The position numbers and the translations under genes were made by a program. A stretch of 64,000 nt of DNA from contig JAUICM010000010.1 of assembly GCA_030427885.1 (NCBI GenBank), positions 1 through 64,000 of the forward strand, read 5' to 3'. Under the pieces are notes generated by a model. That model had not been told where the DNA came from. It did no database searches and worked only from the letters and a program-made list of their open reading frames with translations. This stretch comes from Rhodothermia bacterium (GTDB lineage: Bacteria; Bacteroidota; Rhodothermia; Balneolales; Balneolaceae). Of this stretch, positions 40,057 through 47,188 are shown in pieces. How positions within the stretch are numbered: position 1 is the first letter of the stretch; each line of letters begins with the position of its first letter.

Positions 40057-41604
40057 ATGGCCAACCAACCAAATGATCATCTTTACCAGCTTATAAAATC
40101 GCTGTCCAAAGCCGAAAAAAGAGGGTTTAAGATCTACGCCACCCGCAACAGCTCTGATGATGCGAAGTTCATCCAGCTCTTTGATGCAGTAGATAAAGCG
40201 AAGGACTATGATGAAGATGTGATCATTAAAAAGATCAAAGGGCTTAAGAAAACACAGCTTTCAAATCTGAAAGCTCACTTGTACAAACAAATACTTACCT
40301 CCCTGAGACTTAACTACGTCAATCATAATATTGATATTCAGTTGAGGGAACAGATCGACTATGCACGCATTCTGTACGACAAAGGCCTGTACAAGCAAAG
40401 CCTGAAGATCCTTGAAAAAGCCAAGGCACTGTCTTACGAAAATCACCGTATCACGCTCACAACTGAGATCCTGGGCTTCGAGAAGCTAATTGAATCTCAG
40501 TATATAACCCGAAGCCTTCGAAACCGCGCCGATCAGCTGATCGAGGAAACCGAGGAATCCGTCAGATCTGTTGAACGATACCATGCTCTTTCAAATCTGT
40601 CTTTGAGACTCTATGGTATTTATATCAAAGCTGGACATGTGCGTAGTGAAAGGGATTTTGATATCACCGAGAAGTTCTTTGAAAACGCACTCAAACAGAT
40701 CGATACGAGGGATATCGGTTTTTTTGAAAAGCATTACCTGAATGTTTCCTATGCCTGGTACAGCCTTATTGTTCAGGACTTTCTTATGCAGTACCGCTAC
40801 GCGCAAAAGTGGGTGGATCATTTCCGCAAAAACCCTGATATGCTTGCCCTGGAACCAATCTGGTACTTAAAGGGAGTGCATGTGTTGCTGGAAGCATTAT
40901 TTATTCTGGGACACTATGAAAAGCATCAGGAAGAAGTTCAAAGACTGAAGGAATTCCTTAGTGACCCTCCTACCCGTTCTAATGAGAATCTGGAAACGCT
41001 TGGCTTCCAGTATTACTATACATCTCTTATCAATTCCCACTTTCTGGCCGGGACTTTCACGGAGGGACTTTCAATCATTCCCGAGCTTATTAAAGAGATT
41101 GAGAAGTATTCAGATCATATCGATCCACACCGGATACTCGTATTCTATTATAAGATCGCGTGTATGTATTTCGGGGCCGGGAAGATCGAAAAGGCCATTG
41201 AATACCTTAATAAGATCATTAATTACCCCGATCCCCGACTTCGCGAAGATATTCATTGCTTTGCTCGCATACTGAATCTGATCGCTCACTTCGAACTGGG
41301 CAATGAAACCCTTCTCGACTACCAGGTACGTTCCACCTATCGCTTTATTCGTAAAATGAATGACCTGAATTCGGTTCAGGAAGAGATCCTTAAATTTCTG
41401 AGAAACCTAAGCTCAACCGACCCGAAAAATCTACGCCGTCAATTCATATCTCTACGTGAAAAGCTGATCGATATTCAGGAACAACCCTATCAAAGAAGAG
41501 CTTTTTTATACTTAGACATCATATCCTGGCTGGAATCAAAGATCAACCAAAAACCTATTCAGGAGGTCATTAATAGCAAATTCAAGCCTCGAAATGGACA
41601 TTAG
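40057..41604 (+). CDS. Uncharacterised alpha-helical repeat (TPR-like) protein
   Basis: This 515-residue protein has no signal or membrane segment. It is strongly helical, with paired helices in the style of TPR repeats, for example YDKGLYKQSLKILEKAKALS near 108-127 and FGAGKIEKAIEYLNKIINYP near 370-390. The start MANQPNDHLYQLIKSLSKAEKRGFKIYATR resembles conserved Bacteroidota hypothetical proteins. The function is not recognised; a scaffold role is likely. It sits between the leu and ilv units but is not part of either pathway. Confidence 0.7.
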   Translation: MANQPNDHLYQLIKSLSKAEKRGFKIYATRNSSDDAKFIQLFDAVDKAKDYDEDVIIKKIKGLKKTQLSNLKAHLYKQILTSLRLNYVNHNIDIQLREQIDYARILYDKGLYKQSLKILEKAKALSYENHRITLTTEILGFEKLIESQYITRSLRNRADQLIEETEESVRSVERYHALSNLSLRLYGIYIKAGHVRSERDFDITEKFFENALKQIDTRDIGFFEKHYLNVSYAWYSLIVQDFLMQYRYAQKWVDHFRKNPDMLALEPIWYLKGVHVLLEALFILGHYEKHQEEVQRLKEFLSDPPTRSNENLETLGFQYYYTSLINSHFLAGTFTEGLSIIPELIKEIEKYSDHIDPHRILVFYYKIACMYFGAGKIEKAIEYLNKIINYPDPRLREDIHCFARILNLIAHFELGNETLLDYQVRSTYRFIRKMNDLNSVQEEILKFLRNLSSTDPKNLRRQFISLREKLIDIQEQPYQRRAFLYLDIISWLESKINQKPIQEVINSKFKPRNGH

Positions 41605-41626
41605 ATCTTTGTTGGCCATCCCATTA

Positions 41627-41655
41627 TTGCCGATCTTTTTTCGGTTACTATGTTG
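41627..41655 (+). promoter_or_regulatory. Candidate promoter of the ilv leader
   Basis: TTG (41627-41629) and TATGTTG (41649-41655) are 19 bases apart, resembling the Bacteroidota promoter pair TTG / TAnnTTTG. It would start transcription near 41662, about 40 bases before the leader ATG. Call by eye only. Confidence 0.35.
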
Positions 41656-41704
41656 CTATAGTTCGATATAAGCCATTTATTTGCAACCAGCTAAAAATTT
41701 AATC

Positions 41705-41785
41705 ATGCTATCAACTGTCATTTCTTTGGTCATTATTCGAGTCATTGGTATTCAATACCGACCGGGAAGACTATGCAGTAAGTAA
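41705..41785 (+). CDS. ilv operon leader peptide (26 codons, Ile/Val/Leu-rich)
   Basis: An unannotated ATG-to-TAA frame of 26 codons lies between the helical-repeat gene and ilvD. Codons 5-16 read VISLVIIRVIGI, nine of twelve being branched-chain amino acids (five ATT Ile and three GTC Val plus one Leu). In total 11 of 26 codons are Ile, Val or Leu. It is followed by a terminator hairpin (41800-41834) before ilvD. This is the arrangement of ribosome-mediated attenuators in which stalling at Ile/Val codons allows readthrough. No Shine-Dalgarno is evident. The assignment rests on composition, position and the downstream terminator. Confidence 0.8.
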   Translation: MLSTVISLVIIRVIGIQYRPGRLCSK

Positions 41786-41834
41786 CATGAATTACTTTCA
41801 AAAAAGCCTTCCCGCACCGGAAGGCTTTTTTTTT
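41741..41834 (+). promoter_or_regulatory. ilv attenuator (pause hairpin, antiterminator, terminator)
   Basis: Within the leader coding region GGTAT/ATACC (41748-41752 and 41756-41760) makes a pause-type hairpin, extendable by GTC/GAC (41741-41743 and nearby). CGGGAAG (41763-41769) can pair with CTTCCCG (41808-41814) to form a 7-bp antiterminator. That pairing would prevent the terminator stem GCCTTCC/GGAAGGC. The mutual exclusion is the hallmark of an attenuator. Confidence 0.7.
41800..41834 (+). terminator. Intrinsic terminator in ilv leader
   Basis: Stem GCCTTCC (41806-41812) and GGAAGGC (41819-41825) with loop CGCACC, flanked by six As and followed by nine Ts (41826-41834). It lies 14 bp past the leader stop and 24 bp before the ilvD ATG, so it terminates before the structural genes unless antiterminated. 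Confidence 0.9.
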
Positions 41835-41858
41835 GACTAATAATTTTTGAAGATCTAC

Positions 41859-43538
41859 ATGGCGGAATTAAATAAGTACAGTAAACAGATCACTCAGGAT
41901 GGTTCACAGCCAGCAGCCCAGGCAATGCTGCATGCCCTTGGTTTAAGTGATGAAGATCTCTCGCGACCTCTTATTGGTGTGGCCAGCACCGGATATGAAG
42001 GCAACCCTTGTAATATGCATCTCAATGATCTGGCCGTTCATGTGAAAAGGGGTGTACAGGCTTCCGATCTCACCGGACTCATTTTTAATACGATTGGAAT
42101 AAGTGATGGCATCTCGATGGGAACTCCCGGAATGCGATACTCACTCCCCTCGCGCGACCTGATCGCTGATTCTATGGAATCGGTTGTGAAAGGCATGTTG
42201 TACGATGGTTTTGCTGCTATTGTGGGTTGTGATAAAAATATGCCGGGAGCACTGATGGCTATGCTTCGCGTGAACAGGCCATCTATTCTTGTTTATGGTG
42301 GAACTATTGCACCGGGATATCACAATGGCCAGAAGCTGGATGTGGTTTCAGCATTTGAAGCATGGGGGCAAAAAGTATCGGGCTCAATCGACGATACTGA
42401 ATTCAAAGATATTGTAATGAACGCTTGTCCAGGACCGGGAGCCTGTGGCGGAATGTACACTGCTAATACTATGGCTTCTGCGATCGAAGCAATGGGAATG
42501 GCGTTACCGTATAATGCGTCTAACCCTGCTAATGGAAGTGAGAAAGTGATCGAATGTGAAGAAGTTGGAAAATACCTCTACTCCCTTCTTGAGCAAGACC
42601 TTAAACCACGTGACATTCTCACCAAAAAATCTCTTGAAAATGCATTCAGACTTGTTACTGTTTTAGGCGGTTCAACAAACGCAGTGCTGCACATGCTGGC
42701 AATTGCCAAAACTGCTGAGATCGAATTCACTTTAGAAGATTTCCAGCATATCAGCGACACTACTCCATTCCTCGGAGACCTCAAACCAAGTGGTAAATAT
42801 GTAATGGAAGACCTTCACAAAGTGGGTGGTATTCCAGCTGTAATGAAATTCATGCTAGAAAATGACATGATCCATGGTGATTGCATGACTGTAACTGGTA
42901 AGACCATCGCCGAGAATCTGGCTGATGTCAAAGCTCTTTCAGTAGAGCAGGATGTGATACACGGACTGGACAACCCGATCAAGAAAAACGGACATATTCA
43001 GATATTGTATGGCAACCTGGCTACAGAAGGTGCGGTGGCTAAGATCACGGGAAAAGAAGGACTTGCTTTCAGCGGCACTGCCCGTGTATTTGACAGCGAA
43101 GAAGAAGCCAATGATGGCATCAGTGATGGAAAAGTCCGGAAAGGGGATGTGATCGTTATTCGTTATGTAGGTCCGAAAGGAGGACCTGGTATGCCTGAGA
43201 TGCTGAAGCCAACTTCCGCTATCATGGGGGCTGGTTTAGGAAAAGAGGTGGCTCTGATCACCGACGGACGTTTCTCTGGCGGATCACATGGATTCGTGGT
43301 AGGCCACGTAACTCCTGAAGCCCAGACCGGCGGTAACATCGCCCTGGTCAAAGACGGTGACAAGATCCTCATTGATGCTGAAAAGAATGAAATTCATGTA
43401 GCTGTAAGCGATGATGAACTCGCTGCTCGAAAAGCCCGATGGAGCGAACCTCCATTGAAGGAAAACAAAGGAACTTTATATAAATACGCCAAAACCGTTT
43501 CATCAGCCTCACAAGGCTGCGTGACCGACGAGTTTTAA
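41859..43538 (+). CDS. ilvD: Dihydroxy-acid dehydratase
   Basis: This 559-residue enzyme dehydrates 2,3-dihydroxy-isovalerate and -methylvalerate in valine and isoleucine synthesis. The Fe-S cysteines are in [27 protein letters not shown] and [24 protein letters not shown]. The C-terminal segments [11 protein letters not shown] and [21 protein letters not shown] are also typical. The ATG at 41859 is preferred to the TTG at 41847. It is the first gene of the ilvDBNC unit and is directly behind the attenuator. Confidence 0.97.
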
Positions 43539-43561: not shown

Positions 43562-45301
43562 ATGGGAACTGTAGAAGCACCCACTAAAAAGAAATCAGAC
43601 AATTCAACCAAGACCGAGCGGATATCAGGATCAGAAGCTGTGGCACGAATTCTGGCCGAAGAAGGTGTCGAGATCGCTTTCGGATATCCGGGTGGAGCGA
43701 TCATGCCGGTGTACGATGCTTTGTATGATCATCAGGATGAGATACAGCACGTACTGGCCCGGCACGAACAAGGTGCCATCCATGCTGCACAAGGTTATGC
43801 CCGTGCATCCGGAAAAGTGGGCGTATGTCTGGCAACATCCGGTCCCGGAGCAACCAATCTGATCACCGGTATCGCCGATGCTCAGATCGATTCGACTCCT
43901 CTGGTCTGCATAACCGGACAGGTAGCCTCTTCCCTTCTGGGCAGTGATGCCTTCCAGGAATGTGATGTGATCGGGATCTCCATGCCGGTTACAAAATGGA
44001 ATTATCAGGTTACGCGTGCTGAAGAAATACCCGAGGCACTTGCCAAAGCTTTTTATATCGCTCGTTCTGGTCGTCCTGGTCCTGTGCTGGTCGACATAAC
44101 TAAAGATGCTCAGTTTGATCAGCTCGATTTCAGATATGATAAATGCACGCATCTTCGCAGTTATGTACCTGTACCAAAGCTGGATCATTCAAAAGTTAAG
44201 GAAGCAGCTGAACTCATCAACAATGCAAAACGGCCGTATGTGTTGTTTGGTCAGGGGGTGATACTGGCCAATGCTGAAGATGAATTCAAACAGTTCATCG
44301 AAAAAACTGGTATCCCTTCCGCTTGGACCATCATGGGATTATCCGCTCTTGATACCGATCATCCCCTGAATGTGGGAATGCTTGGAATGCACGGAAATTA
44401 TGGGCCGAATTTGCTTACCAACGAGTGTGATGTCCTGATTGCTATTGGGATGCGCTTCGATGACCGTGTAACCGGCAACTTATCGAAATATGCAAAGCAG
44501 GCTAAAGTAATCCATCTGGAGATCGACCCTGCTGAGATCGACAAAAATGTGAAAACTGAAGTTGCTGTACTCGGTGATGCTAAAGAATCACTGACTGAGT
44601 TGATCAAACATGTAAAACCAAACAGCCACGATGAATGGCTGCAAAAATTCCGTGATTGTGATAAGCTCGAGCACGAGAAGGTGATCCAGGAAGAACTCAA
44701 CCCGACCTCAGATATTCTGAGTATGGGTGAGGTGATAAAGCTCATCAACAAATACACTAATGGTGATGCCATTCTGGTTACCGATGTGGGACAACACCAG
44801 ATGGTTGCATGCCGCTATACCAAATTCAATAAATCCAAAAGTAATATCACTTCTGGTGGATTGGGCACTATGGGCTTCGGGCTACCGGCTGCTTTGGGAG
44901 CCGCACTTGGTGAACCCGACCGAAAAGTGATCTGCGTGGTAGGCGATGGTGGTTTCCAGATGACTCTTCAGGAACTGGCTACCATATATCAGACCCAGGC
45001 GAAAGTGAAAGTATTACTGCTTAATAACGAGTTCCTTGGCATGGTTCGACAGTGGCAGCAGTTGTTCTTCGAGAAACGATACTCTTCTACCGAGTTGATA
45101 AACCCCGACTTCCAGACTATTGCTAAAGGGTTTTATATCCCAACAAACAAAGTAACAGAACGAAGAAACCTGGAAGAAGCCATCAAAGAATTTGTCGAAT
45201 CGGACAGTGCATATTTCCTGGAAGTGATGGTAGGCAAAGAGAATAACGTATTCCCGATGGTGCCAAGCGGCTCGGGAGTAGCAGAAATCAGATTGGAATG
45301 A
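43562..45301 (+). CDS. ilvB: Acetolactate synthase large subunit
   Basis: This 579-residue thiamine-diphosphate enzyme makes acetolactate or acetohydroxybutyrate. Domains in order: N-terminal PYR domain with GYPGGAIMPVYDAL and the catalytic Glu in ARHEQGAIHAAQGYARASG; central FAD-binding-like domain (VLFGQGVI, MLGMHGNYG); C-terminal PP domain with the ThDP/Mg motif GDGGFQMTLQELAT followed by LLNNEFLGMVRQWQ. It is co-oriented with ilvD (23-bp gap). It needs the small subunit IlvN, encoded 165 bp later. Confidence 0.97.
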   Translation: MGTVEAPTKKKSDNSTKTERISGSEAVARILAEEGVEIAFGYPGGAIMPVYDALYDHQDEIQHVLARHEQGAIHAAQGYARASGKVGVCLATSGPGATNLITGIADAQIDSTPLVCITGQVASSLLGSDAFQECDVIGISMPVTKWNYQVTRAEEIPEALAKAFYIARSGRPGPVLVDITKDAQFDQLDFRYDKCTHLRSYVPVPKLDHSKVKEAAELINNAKRPYVLFGQGVILANAEDEFKQFIEKTGIPSAWTIMGLSALDTDHPLNVGMLGMHGNYGPNLLTNECDVLIAIGMRFDDRVTGNLSKYAKQAKVIHLEIDPAEIDKNVKTEVAVLGDAKESLTELIKHVKPNSHDEWLQKFRDCDKLEHEKVIQEELNPTSDILSMGEVIKLINKYTNGDAILVTDVGQHQMVACRYTKFNKSKSNITSGGLGTMGFGLPAALGAALGEPDRKVICVVGDGGFQMTLQELATIYQTQAKVKVLLLNNEFLGMVRQWQQLFFEKRYSSTELINPDFQTIAKGFYIPTNKVTERRNLEEAIKEFVESDSAYFLEVMVGKENNVFPMVPSGSGVAEIRLE

Positions 45302-45466: not shown

Positions 45467-46003
45467 ATGGAACAACAGGAATTTACCATCACCGCTTATA
45501 CCGAAAATCATGTAGGGCTCCTTCACCGGATCACCATCATTTTCACCAAGCGTAAGATCAACATCGAAAGCCTGACTACCTCTGAAAGTGAGACCGAAGG
45601 TATTCACCGGTTCACTATTGCAGTAACTGAGACAGAAGAAACAGTTCAGAAAGTGGTGAAACAGATTGAAAAGCAGGTTGAAGTACTCAAAGCCGGCTAC
45701 TACAAAAAGAAGGAAGTGGTTCAGCAGGAACTAGCCCTGTACAAGCTCCGCACAGATTCCCTGACCAACGGACTGGAAGTGGAGCGTATCGTGCGTGAAC
45801 ATGGCGCCCGTTTTCTAACCATCGAGAAGGAATTTGTGGTGATTGAAAAAGCGGGTTACAAACGTGAAACCAAAGCCCTCTTCGACGAACTTAAAACCTA
45901 TGACATCATAGAATTTGTACGATCCGGCCGAATTGCGGTTAGCCGGGAACAATATGGCCTCGGTCGTCAGGTCGCTGAACTGCTTGCAACAGAGGTGGTT
46001 TGA
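45467..46003 (+). CDS. ilvN: Acetolactate synthase small (regulatory) subunit
   Basis: This 178-residue protein has an N-terminal ACT domain (about 5-80; ITAYTENHVGLLHRITIIFTKRKINIESL) that binds valine for feedback control. It also has a C-terminal small-subunit domain (ELALYKLRTDS, FLTIEKEFVVIEKAGYKRE, YDIIEFVRSGRIAVSR). It activates and regulates IlvB. It is separated from ilvB by an unusually long 165-bp gap and from ilvC by 138 bp. Confidence 0.95.
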   Translation: MEQQEFTITAYTENHVGLLHRITIIFTKRKINIESLTTSESETEGIHRFTIAVTETEETVQKVVKQIEKQVEVLKAGYYKKKEVVQQELALYKLRTDSLTNGLEVERIVREHGARFLTIEKEFVVIEKAGYKRETKALFDELKTYDIIEFVRSGRIAVSREQYGLGRQVAELLATEVV

Positions 46004-46141: not shown

Positions 46142-47188
46142 ATGGCACTTTTAAATTTTGGCGGAGTCGAAGAAGAAGTAGTAACACGGGAGGAATTCCC
46201 TCTTGAAAAAGCTCGTGAAACCCTTAAAGATGAAACCATAGCGATCATCGGATATGGTGTGCAGGGGCCCGGACAGGCACTTAACCTGAAAGACAACGGT
46301 TTCAACGTGATCGTTGGTCAGCGTAAAGGCTCCAAAACATGGGACAAAGCTGTAGCAGATGGCTGGGTTCCCGGCGAAACGCTCTTCGAGATCGAGGAAG
46401 CTTGTGAAAAAGGAACCATCCTTCAGTACCTGCTTTCTGATGCGGGACAGATCTCTGTATGGCCGACTGTGAAGAAACATCTCACTCCAGGCAAAGCCCT
46501 TTATTTCTCTCACGGATTCGGTATCACCTATAAAGAACGTACCGGTATCATTCCCCCGGACGATGTGGATGTGATCCTCGTGGCTCCTAAGGGATCGGGA
46601 ACCTCCCTGCGACGTATGTTCCTGGAAGGTCGTGGATTGAACTCCAGTTTTGCCATTTTCCAGGATGCCACAGGAAAAGCATTTGACCGTGTGGTTGCTT
46701 TGGGGATCGGTGTGGGATCAGGCTACCTGTTCAAAACTGATTTCCGTAAAGAAGTATTCTCTGACCTTACCGGTGAACGTGGAACACTGATGGGCGCTAT
46801 CCAGGGGATCTTTGCTGCGCAATACGAAGTACTGCGTTCTAATGGTCACTCCCCTTCTGAGGCCTTTAACGAAACCGTGGAAGAACTTACACAGTCACTG
46901 ATGCCACTGGTTGCAGAAAATGGCATGGACTGGATGTATGCCAACTGTTCCACCACTGCACAACGTGGTGCCCTGGACTGGTGGAAGCCATTCCGCGATG
47001 CCACTAAACCGGTATTCGAAAAACTCTATAAAGAAGTGGCTGCAGGCAACGAAGCCCAGAAGAGCATTGATGCCAACTCAAAAGAAGATTACCGCGCAGG
47101 ACTTGAGGAAGAACTCAAGGAACTCCGCGAAAGCGAGATGTGGCAGGCCGGAGCAACGGTTCGGAAATTACGACCGGAGAATAATTAA
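46142..47188 (+). CDS. ilvC: Ketol-acid reductoisomerase
   Basis: This 348-residue enzyme performs the alkyl shift and NAD(P)H reduction of acetolactate. The Rossmann motif GYGVQGPGQALNLKDNG is followed by the cofactor loop GQRKGSKTWD. The knotted C-terminal domain has DLTGERGTLMGAIQGIFAAQYE with metal-binding Asp and Glu, and the NCSTTAQRGALDW segment. The length is close to typical class I enzymes. It is the last gene of the ilv unit, followed by repeat-rich DNA. Confidence 0.95.
   Translation: MALLNFGGVEEEVVTREEFPLEKARETLKDETIAIIGYGVQGPGQALNLKDNGFNVIVGQRKGSKTWDKAVADGWVPGETLFEIEEACEKGTILQYLLSDAGQISVWPTVKKHLTPGKALYFSHGFGITYKERTGIIPPDDVDVILVAPKGSGTSLRRMFLEGRGLNSSFAIFQDATGKAFDRVVALGIGVGSGYLFKTDFRKEVFSDLTGERGTLMGAIQGIFAAQYEVLRSNGHSPSEAFNETVEELTQSLMPLVAENGMDWMYANCSTTAQRGALDWWKPFRDATKPVFEKLYKEVAAGNEAQKSIDANSKEDYRAGLEEELKELRESEMWQAGATVRKLRPENN

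Follow-up and report, generated by a model that had tools for sequence, protein, structure and literature searches.

The ilvDBNC operon of the window (the whole 64,000-nucleotide stretch of contig JAUICM010000010.1 from a Rhodothermia bacterium of the Balneolaceae) is very probably controlled by a classical ribosome-mediated transcription attenuator, which on the best reading would sense charged Ile/Val tRNA. The parts of the attenuator are present, conserved and covarying in relatives, and from these we infer translation of the leader, a kinetic choice between RNA folds and a response to Ile/Val. That ilv, leu and his operons can be controlled by ribosome-mediated attenuation is textbook knowledge, and an earlier sequence-only reading had interpreted this region in the same way, an interpretation now supported by the leader frame, by the conservation and covariation of the pairing and by the position of a candidate promoter motif.

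Table 1. Features of the ilvDBNC leader region and operon in the window, and loci with other conserved elements in relatives
Feature	Position in window or loci	Strand	Evidence or remark
Candidate -33 element, TTG	41653..41655	+	TTG 19-21 nt before TWnnTTTG, 17/28 loci
Candidate -7 element, TTTATTTG, Bacteroidota sigma-A type	41676..41683	+	conserved 18-23 nt before leader start
Putative leader ORF, 26 aa, MLSTVISLVIIRVIGIQYRPGRLCSK and stop	41705..41785	+	frame kept in 28 relatives, codon-multiple length differences
Control codons V5 I6.. V9 I10 I11. V13 I14	41717..41746	+	ribosome-position folding
Protector hairpin, arm 1	41724..41731	+	RNAalifold helix; covariation score reached by 0/500 shuffles
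Partner of arm 1, overlapping arm 2	41760..41767	+	RNAalifold helix and covariation
Arm 2, CGGGAAG, antiterminator 5' strand	41763..41769	+	-12.5 kcal/mol with arm 3, shuffle P 0.02
Arm 3, GCCTTCCCG, terminator 5' strand and antiterminator 3' strand	41806..41814	+	duplex scoring, RNAalifold
Intrinsic terminator, GCCTTCC-CGCACC-GGAAGGC and T9	41806..41834	+	-11.1 kcal/mol; 100% of cells paired, 28 sequences
ilvD	41859..43538	+	PF00920, PF24877
ilvB	43562..45301	+	TPP enzyme domains
ilvN	45467..46003	+	acetolactate synthase small subunit domains
ilvC	46142..47188	+	KARI domains
ilvB leader	L015, L017, L018, L020, L026, L030, L044-L046, L077-L086	opposite to ilvD
ilvB leader, further loci	L019, L021-L025
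TGGAAGCGCTTTT-like site	L015, L016, L018-L022, L030, L044, L046		upstream of ilvD

Leader ORF and candidate promoter upstream of ilvD

The gene order ilvD-ilvB-ilvN-ilvC proposed in the sequence-only reading agrees with the Pfam domains, and every coordinate given there for the 26-codon Ile/Val-rich frame was correct (Table 1). The leader runs from an ATG at 41705 to a TAA at 41783-41785, with codons 5-16 reading VISLVIIRVIGI. Within a 13-codon core of the aligned leaders, Ile and Val account for 59% of codons in frame vs 7% and 5% in the other two frames, which contain 10 and 21 stops, and length differences inside the aligned part of the leader are 3 or 6 bases, corresponding to whole codons. 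Frame conservation of this kind provides good, though indirect, evidence for translation of the putative leader. There is no evident Shine-Dalgarno sequence upstream of the leader in the window. An in-frame TTG at 41681 was ruled out as start codon of the leader, as it precedes the predicted transcription start.

As a scan of the + strand for σ70 promoters gave nothing useful, the Bacteroidota promoter consensus (TTTG / TANNTTTG; PMC6847099, PMC9723704) was used in its place, the -7 box of which occupies positions -12 to -5 in Flavobacterium (PMC6847099). The arrangement TTG-N19-21-TWnnTTTG was present ahead of the leader in 17/28 loci (base-shuffle rate 0.4%), while the exact motif was missing in the remaining 11. 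In the window the candidate promoter is located 21 bases ahead of the leader with a -7 box without the consensus A, and transcription would start near 41688, at a distance of 17 nt from the leader ATG. A start beyond 41834 had been named beforehand as evidence that would speak against attenuation, and the candidate promoter motif precedes the leader rather than following the terminator. Further upstream, a TTGGNCATYCCAT-like motif (41612-41624 in the window) is conserved in nearly all 27 family members; elsewhere in the genome an exact copy occurs just once, in a region not evidently linked to the pathway.

Terminator, antiterminator and protector hairpin

The terminator consists of GCCTTCC (41806-41812), the loop CGCACC, GGAAGGC (41819-41825) and nine Ts (41826-41834), and the CGGGAAG of arm 2 is complementary to CTTCCCG at 41808-41814; both elements had been placed correctly in the sequence-only reading. 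Arm 3 is common to terminator and antiterminator, which are thus mutually exclusive, and the protector (1:2) hairpin overlaps both the control codons and arm 2, as expected of an attenuator. The leader region folds with an energy of -40.2 kcal/mol vs -24.0 (sd 3.2) for dinucleotide shuffles, which is 5 sd better, although this energy alone says little on regulation because the terminator supplies much of it.

An unguided RNAalifold analysis recovered the terminator and a second helix (columns 23-29 with 66-72), which corresponds to the protector hairpin and whose covariation had not featured in the earlier reading. Double changes were found in four of its six pairs. Counted over both helices, 28 alignment cells carry double changes, almost all of them belonging to the protector hairpin, and none of 500 shuffles reached this number. 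The two-helix covariation score and the paired percentage likewise exceeded those of every one of the 500 shuffles and of every slid version. The sequence of the terminator is nearly invariant among the 28 sequences, and the outermost pair of the protector hairpin (41724-41767) is not formed in the window sequence itself. For the antiterminator the covariation count was weak on the MAFFT alignment, the register of which slips by one base between clades, and for that reason it was scored per sequence as duplexes. In 25/28 loci, arm 2 and arm 3 paired better than dinucleotide-shuffled sequences (P ≤ 0.05), and own arms gave a mean of -11.8 kcal/mol vs -10.3 when reassigned between genomes, with none of 20,000 permutations as good (ignoring relatedness). 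When restricted to the main Balneolaceae clade the same swap test gave a P of 0.39, which is uninformative because the arms are nearly invariant there. The earlier reading had singled out two properties for comparison with relatives, hydrophobicity of the leader frame and pairing of the antiterminator, and both were found to be conserved or co-varying.

One rival explanation is that the hairpin is a plain terminator for the upstream gene (40057-41604), that the small ORF is fortuitous or unrelated, and that ilvD is transcribed from its own promoter. While the upstream gene is indeed on the same strand and TAnnTTTG is found between terminator and ilvD in 2/28 loci, this internal -7 box is absent in the other 26, many genomes have only 9-24 nt left before ilvD, and the terminator is located approximately 200 nt past the stop codon of the upstream gene, after the conserved promoter motif and ORF. 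Together with the covariation of arm 2 with arm 3, this makes a plain terminator improbable. The conserved frame and hydrophobicity of the leader could also reflect a functional small hydrophobic protein, with the terminator fixing the fraction of read-through, but the non-Ile/Val residues vary freely (MLSTVISLVIIRVIG, LIQQRDIIVIIIEVIV, MNRQIINIISIIIVVIISHR) while the Ile/Val content and RNA pairing persist, and we consider this even less probable. Least credible is a tRNA- or ligand-binding RNA (T-box, riboswitch) working through the same output device, since no Rfam family, leader families such as Phe_leader and Thr_leader included, reached the gathering cut-off in the window (Phe_leader was best with 28.7 bits vs 55), the T-box covariance model did not match there either, and the RNA is only ~130 nt and mostly occupied by the ORF.

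Ribosome position and the proposed attenuation switch

The classical attenuator was modelled by folding the RNA past the front edge of the ribosome, assumed to be 12 nt beyond the A-site codon, before the 3' strand of the terminator is made. A ribosome at codons 5-14 leaves arm 2 free, and in the five sequences tried such stalls resulted in the antiterminator, whereas a ribosome at codon 16 starts to cover arm 2 and one at the stop codon allowed essentially no antiterminator. In several loci the stop codon is inside arm 2 (TGATACAG, CGATGAGGAAG), and a terminating ribosome must therefore cover it. When the full RNA was folded at equilibrium the terminator was favoured in most folds, including those with a stalled ribosome, so that the choice between the two folds would have to be kinetic and made during transcription, like in classical systems.

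In the proposed switch, RNA polymerase would begin near 41688 and be followed by a ribosome into the leader ORF. With Ile-tRNA and Val-tRNA both charged, the ribosome would reach the stop codon and cover arm 2, allowing arm 3 to fold into the terminator and halting transcription ahead of ilvD. If either tRNA is short, the ribosome would stall at codons 5-14 and the protector hairpin would be melted, upon which arm 2 could pair with arm 3 and the ilvDBNC operon would be read. Without translation, the protector hairpin would keep arm 2 and the terminator would form.

Conservation in the Balneolaceae and Flavobacteriaceae

The Ile/Val leader, terminator and complementary arm are found at the same place in 27/27 family members with a closely related in-line ilvD (77-100% identity, window included), and the full layout is also present in one genome of another family (L016), with an Ile/Leu/Val-rich leader. 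The leader peptides vary between relatives (MITRTIITVIINVIGTKYRPGK, LIQQRDIIVIIIEVIVQKR, MLNNLLLINVILLVLISKPR) yet remain rich in Ile and Val. A detector for short ORFs in which 10 codons include six or more Ile/Val, followed by a U-tailed hairpin within 70 nt, gave a single match in the window with both strands scanned, and no matches in dinucleotide-shuffled upstream regions (0/400) or in ilvD-internal (0/80), downstream (0/80), antisense (0/80) and hisG-upstream (0/28) control sets, while a stricter threshold (7 in 10) was not reached by any of 5000 shuffles of 41605-41846. When 129 genomes of the order were searched, the covariance model made from the 28 sequences scored strongly (E ≤ 1.2e-5) in 28 of them, with a single such hit in each, always directly before ilvD. 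Weak hits with this model (L067-L076) were rejected as attenuators, as they look like plain terminators lacking both an Ile/Val leader and a biosynthesis gene.

When the 80 named loci closest in IlvD sequence were examined, 34 passed the detector (9 Balneolaceae, 25 Flavobacteriaceae), which is a lower bound as the detector is strict; this breadth in the Flavobacteriaceae was likewise absent from the sequence-only reading. In many of the Flavobacteriaceae terminators, GCCTTCC...GGAAGGC is replaced by GCCTGTATC...GATACAGGC. At the leader end, the arm has become GATACAG or GATACGG to match, as in L195 (GGTTGATACAG with CTGTATCAACC), and the changes include a wholesale switch to GATACAG/CTGTATC. 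The 25 Flavobacteriaceae loci had a score of -11.3 for their own pairing vs -9.6 when swapped (0/20,000 permutations, ignoring relatedness), with 17/25 better than shuffles at P ≤ 0.05, and this swap test is a stronger test of the antiterminator than the Balneolaceae one.

The nearest named IlvD proteins are from Balneolaceae MAGs (82-86% identical), followed by Gracilimonas/Balneola, from which a Balneolaceae origin of the window follows. Between the window-type IlvD and that of Flavobacteriaceae the identity is 72-75%, but it is only 60-65% with the IlvD of several further Balneolaceae genera, which suggests that the ilvD operon, perhaps with the attenuator, may have passed between Balneolaceae and Flavobacteriaceae.

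Leaders of hisG and ilvB

In the window genome a His leader with GTG start (VNLDNLHTAHHPHHGIHHGHHRVH and stop) is located before hisG (L087/L088, G000:C10), and similar His leaders are present in most of the 28 readable family members. They have a small hairpin around the stop codon and a C/T-rich spacer, and no U-tailed terminator was found in the 28 readable family members. Inspection by eye of the region before leuA revealed no Leu-rich leader combined with a U-tailed terminator. Sister genera in which ilvD and ilvB are divergent carry, ahead of ilvB, a leader of 60-100 codons that is rich in Ile/Leu/Val and ends in ...SILISGILNLILIIS and a stop (Table 1). Behind it comes a hairpin with hardly any variation, GCCAGAGGTTAG/ACCTCTGGC (also given as GCCAGAGGTTAG...GACCTCTGGC), which has no U-tract and no Rfam match in the loci searched. 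A TCTGGC inside this leader could pair with the same hairpin arm. Without a U-tailed terminator, the his and ilvB leaders are more puzzling than the ilvD attenuator. The ilvB-ilvD intergenic region of the sister genera also contains a conserved TGGAAGCGCTTTT-like site, resembling a LacI-family operator, which is found upstream of ilvD in L016 as well, and in L129 an array of short repeats (GGGAACGAAGTGACCGCCC / AAAAGCAATCGAAGATTGCGCCC) is located upstream of ilvD.

We tentatively raise the possibility, to which we give well under even chances, that a single ilvD attenuator module is common to Balneolaceae and Flavobacteriaceae and moved with the operon, and that in sister genera the task falls to leaders lacking a U-tailed terminator (the long Ile/Leu leader of ilvB and the His leader of hisG), which would represent a second, undescribed output device. 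If true, this module would work in bacteria whose relatives start translation largely without Shine-Dalgarno sequences.

Comparison with known attenuators

The ilvDBNC leader represents a well-supported and testable ribosome-mediated attenuator in the Balneolaceae, which is absent from Rfam and reaches at least 25 Flavobacteriaceae ilvD loci, and it provides a simple annotation rule for Ile/Val regulation in Bacteroidota. Ribosome-mediated attenuation requires close coupling of RNA polymerase and ribosome, and its conservation would thus imply that coupling works in a phylum mostly without Shine-Dalgarno initiation.

As in the enterobacterial ilvGMEDA, ilvBN, leu, his and trp attenuators, a leader ORF with codons for the end product, a protector hairpin, an antiterminator and a U-tailed terminator follow each other in the same order. 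The window differs from these in its very short RNA (~150 nt), the minimal terminator of 7 bp and the promoter motif of Bacteroidota type; moreover, the leader is not preceded by an evident Shine-Dalgarno sequence and matches no Rfam leader family. Attenuator candidates were reportedly also listed in Bacteroidetes/Chlorobi by Vitreschak et al. in 2004.

Within the phylum, the Bacteroid-trp RNA (RF01692, PMC2864571) is likewise a cis-regulatory RNA motif listed for Bacteroidetes, by its name a trp leader, but it belongs to a different operon and has no match in the window. The thetaiotaomicron map contains sORFs reminiscent of attenuation leaders (PMC7366714). The view that such attenuators are rarely annotated in Bacteroidota/Balneolota stands for Rfam, given the lack of a match, but has to be qualified for the literature, as a transcript map of Flavobacterium psychrophilum already gives hints of attenuation by leader peptides upstream of amino-acid operons (PMC9723704), and the ilvDBNC attenuator is therefore a further case of a known mechanism. 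Those leaders are the same kind of element in what GTDB classifies as the same phylum, and the Flavobacteriaceae ilvD loci found here bear leaders of a similar kind; that work addressed transcripts of one species, whereas the present analysis adds the Balneolaceae and comparative support.
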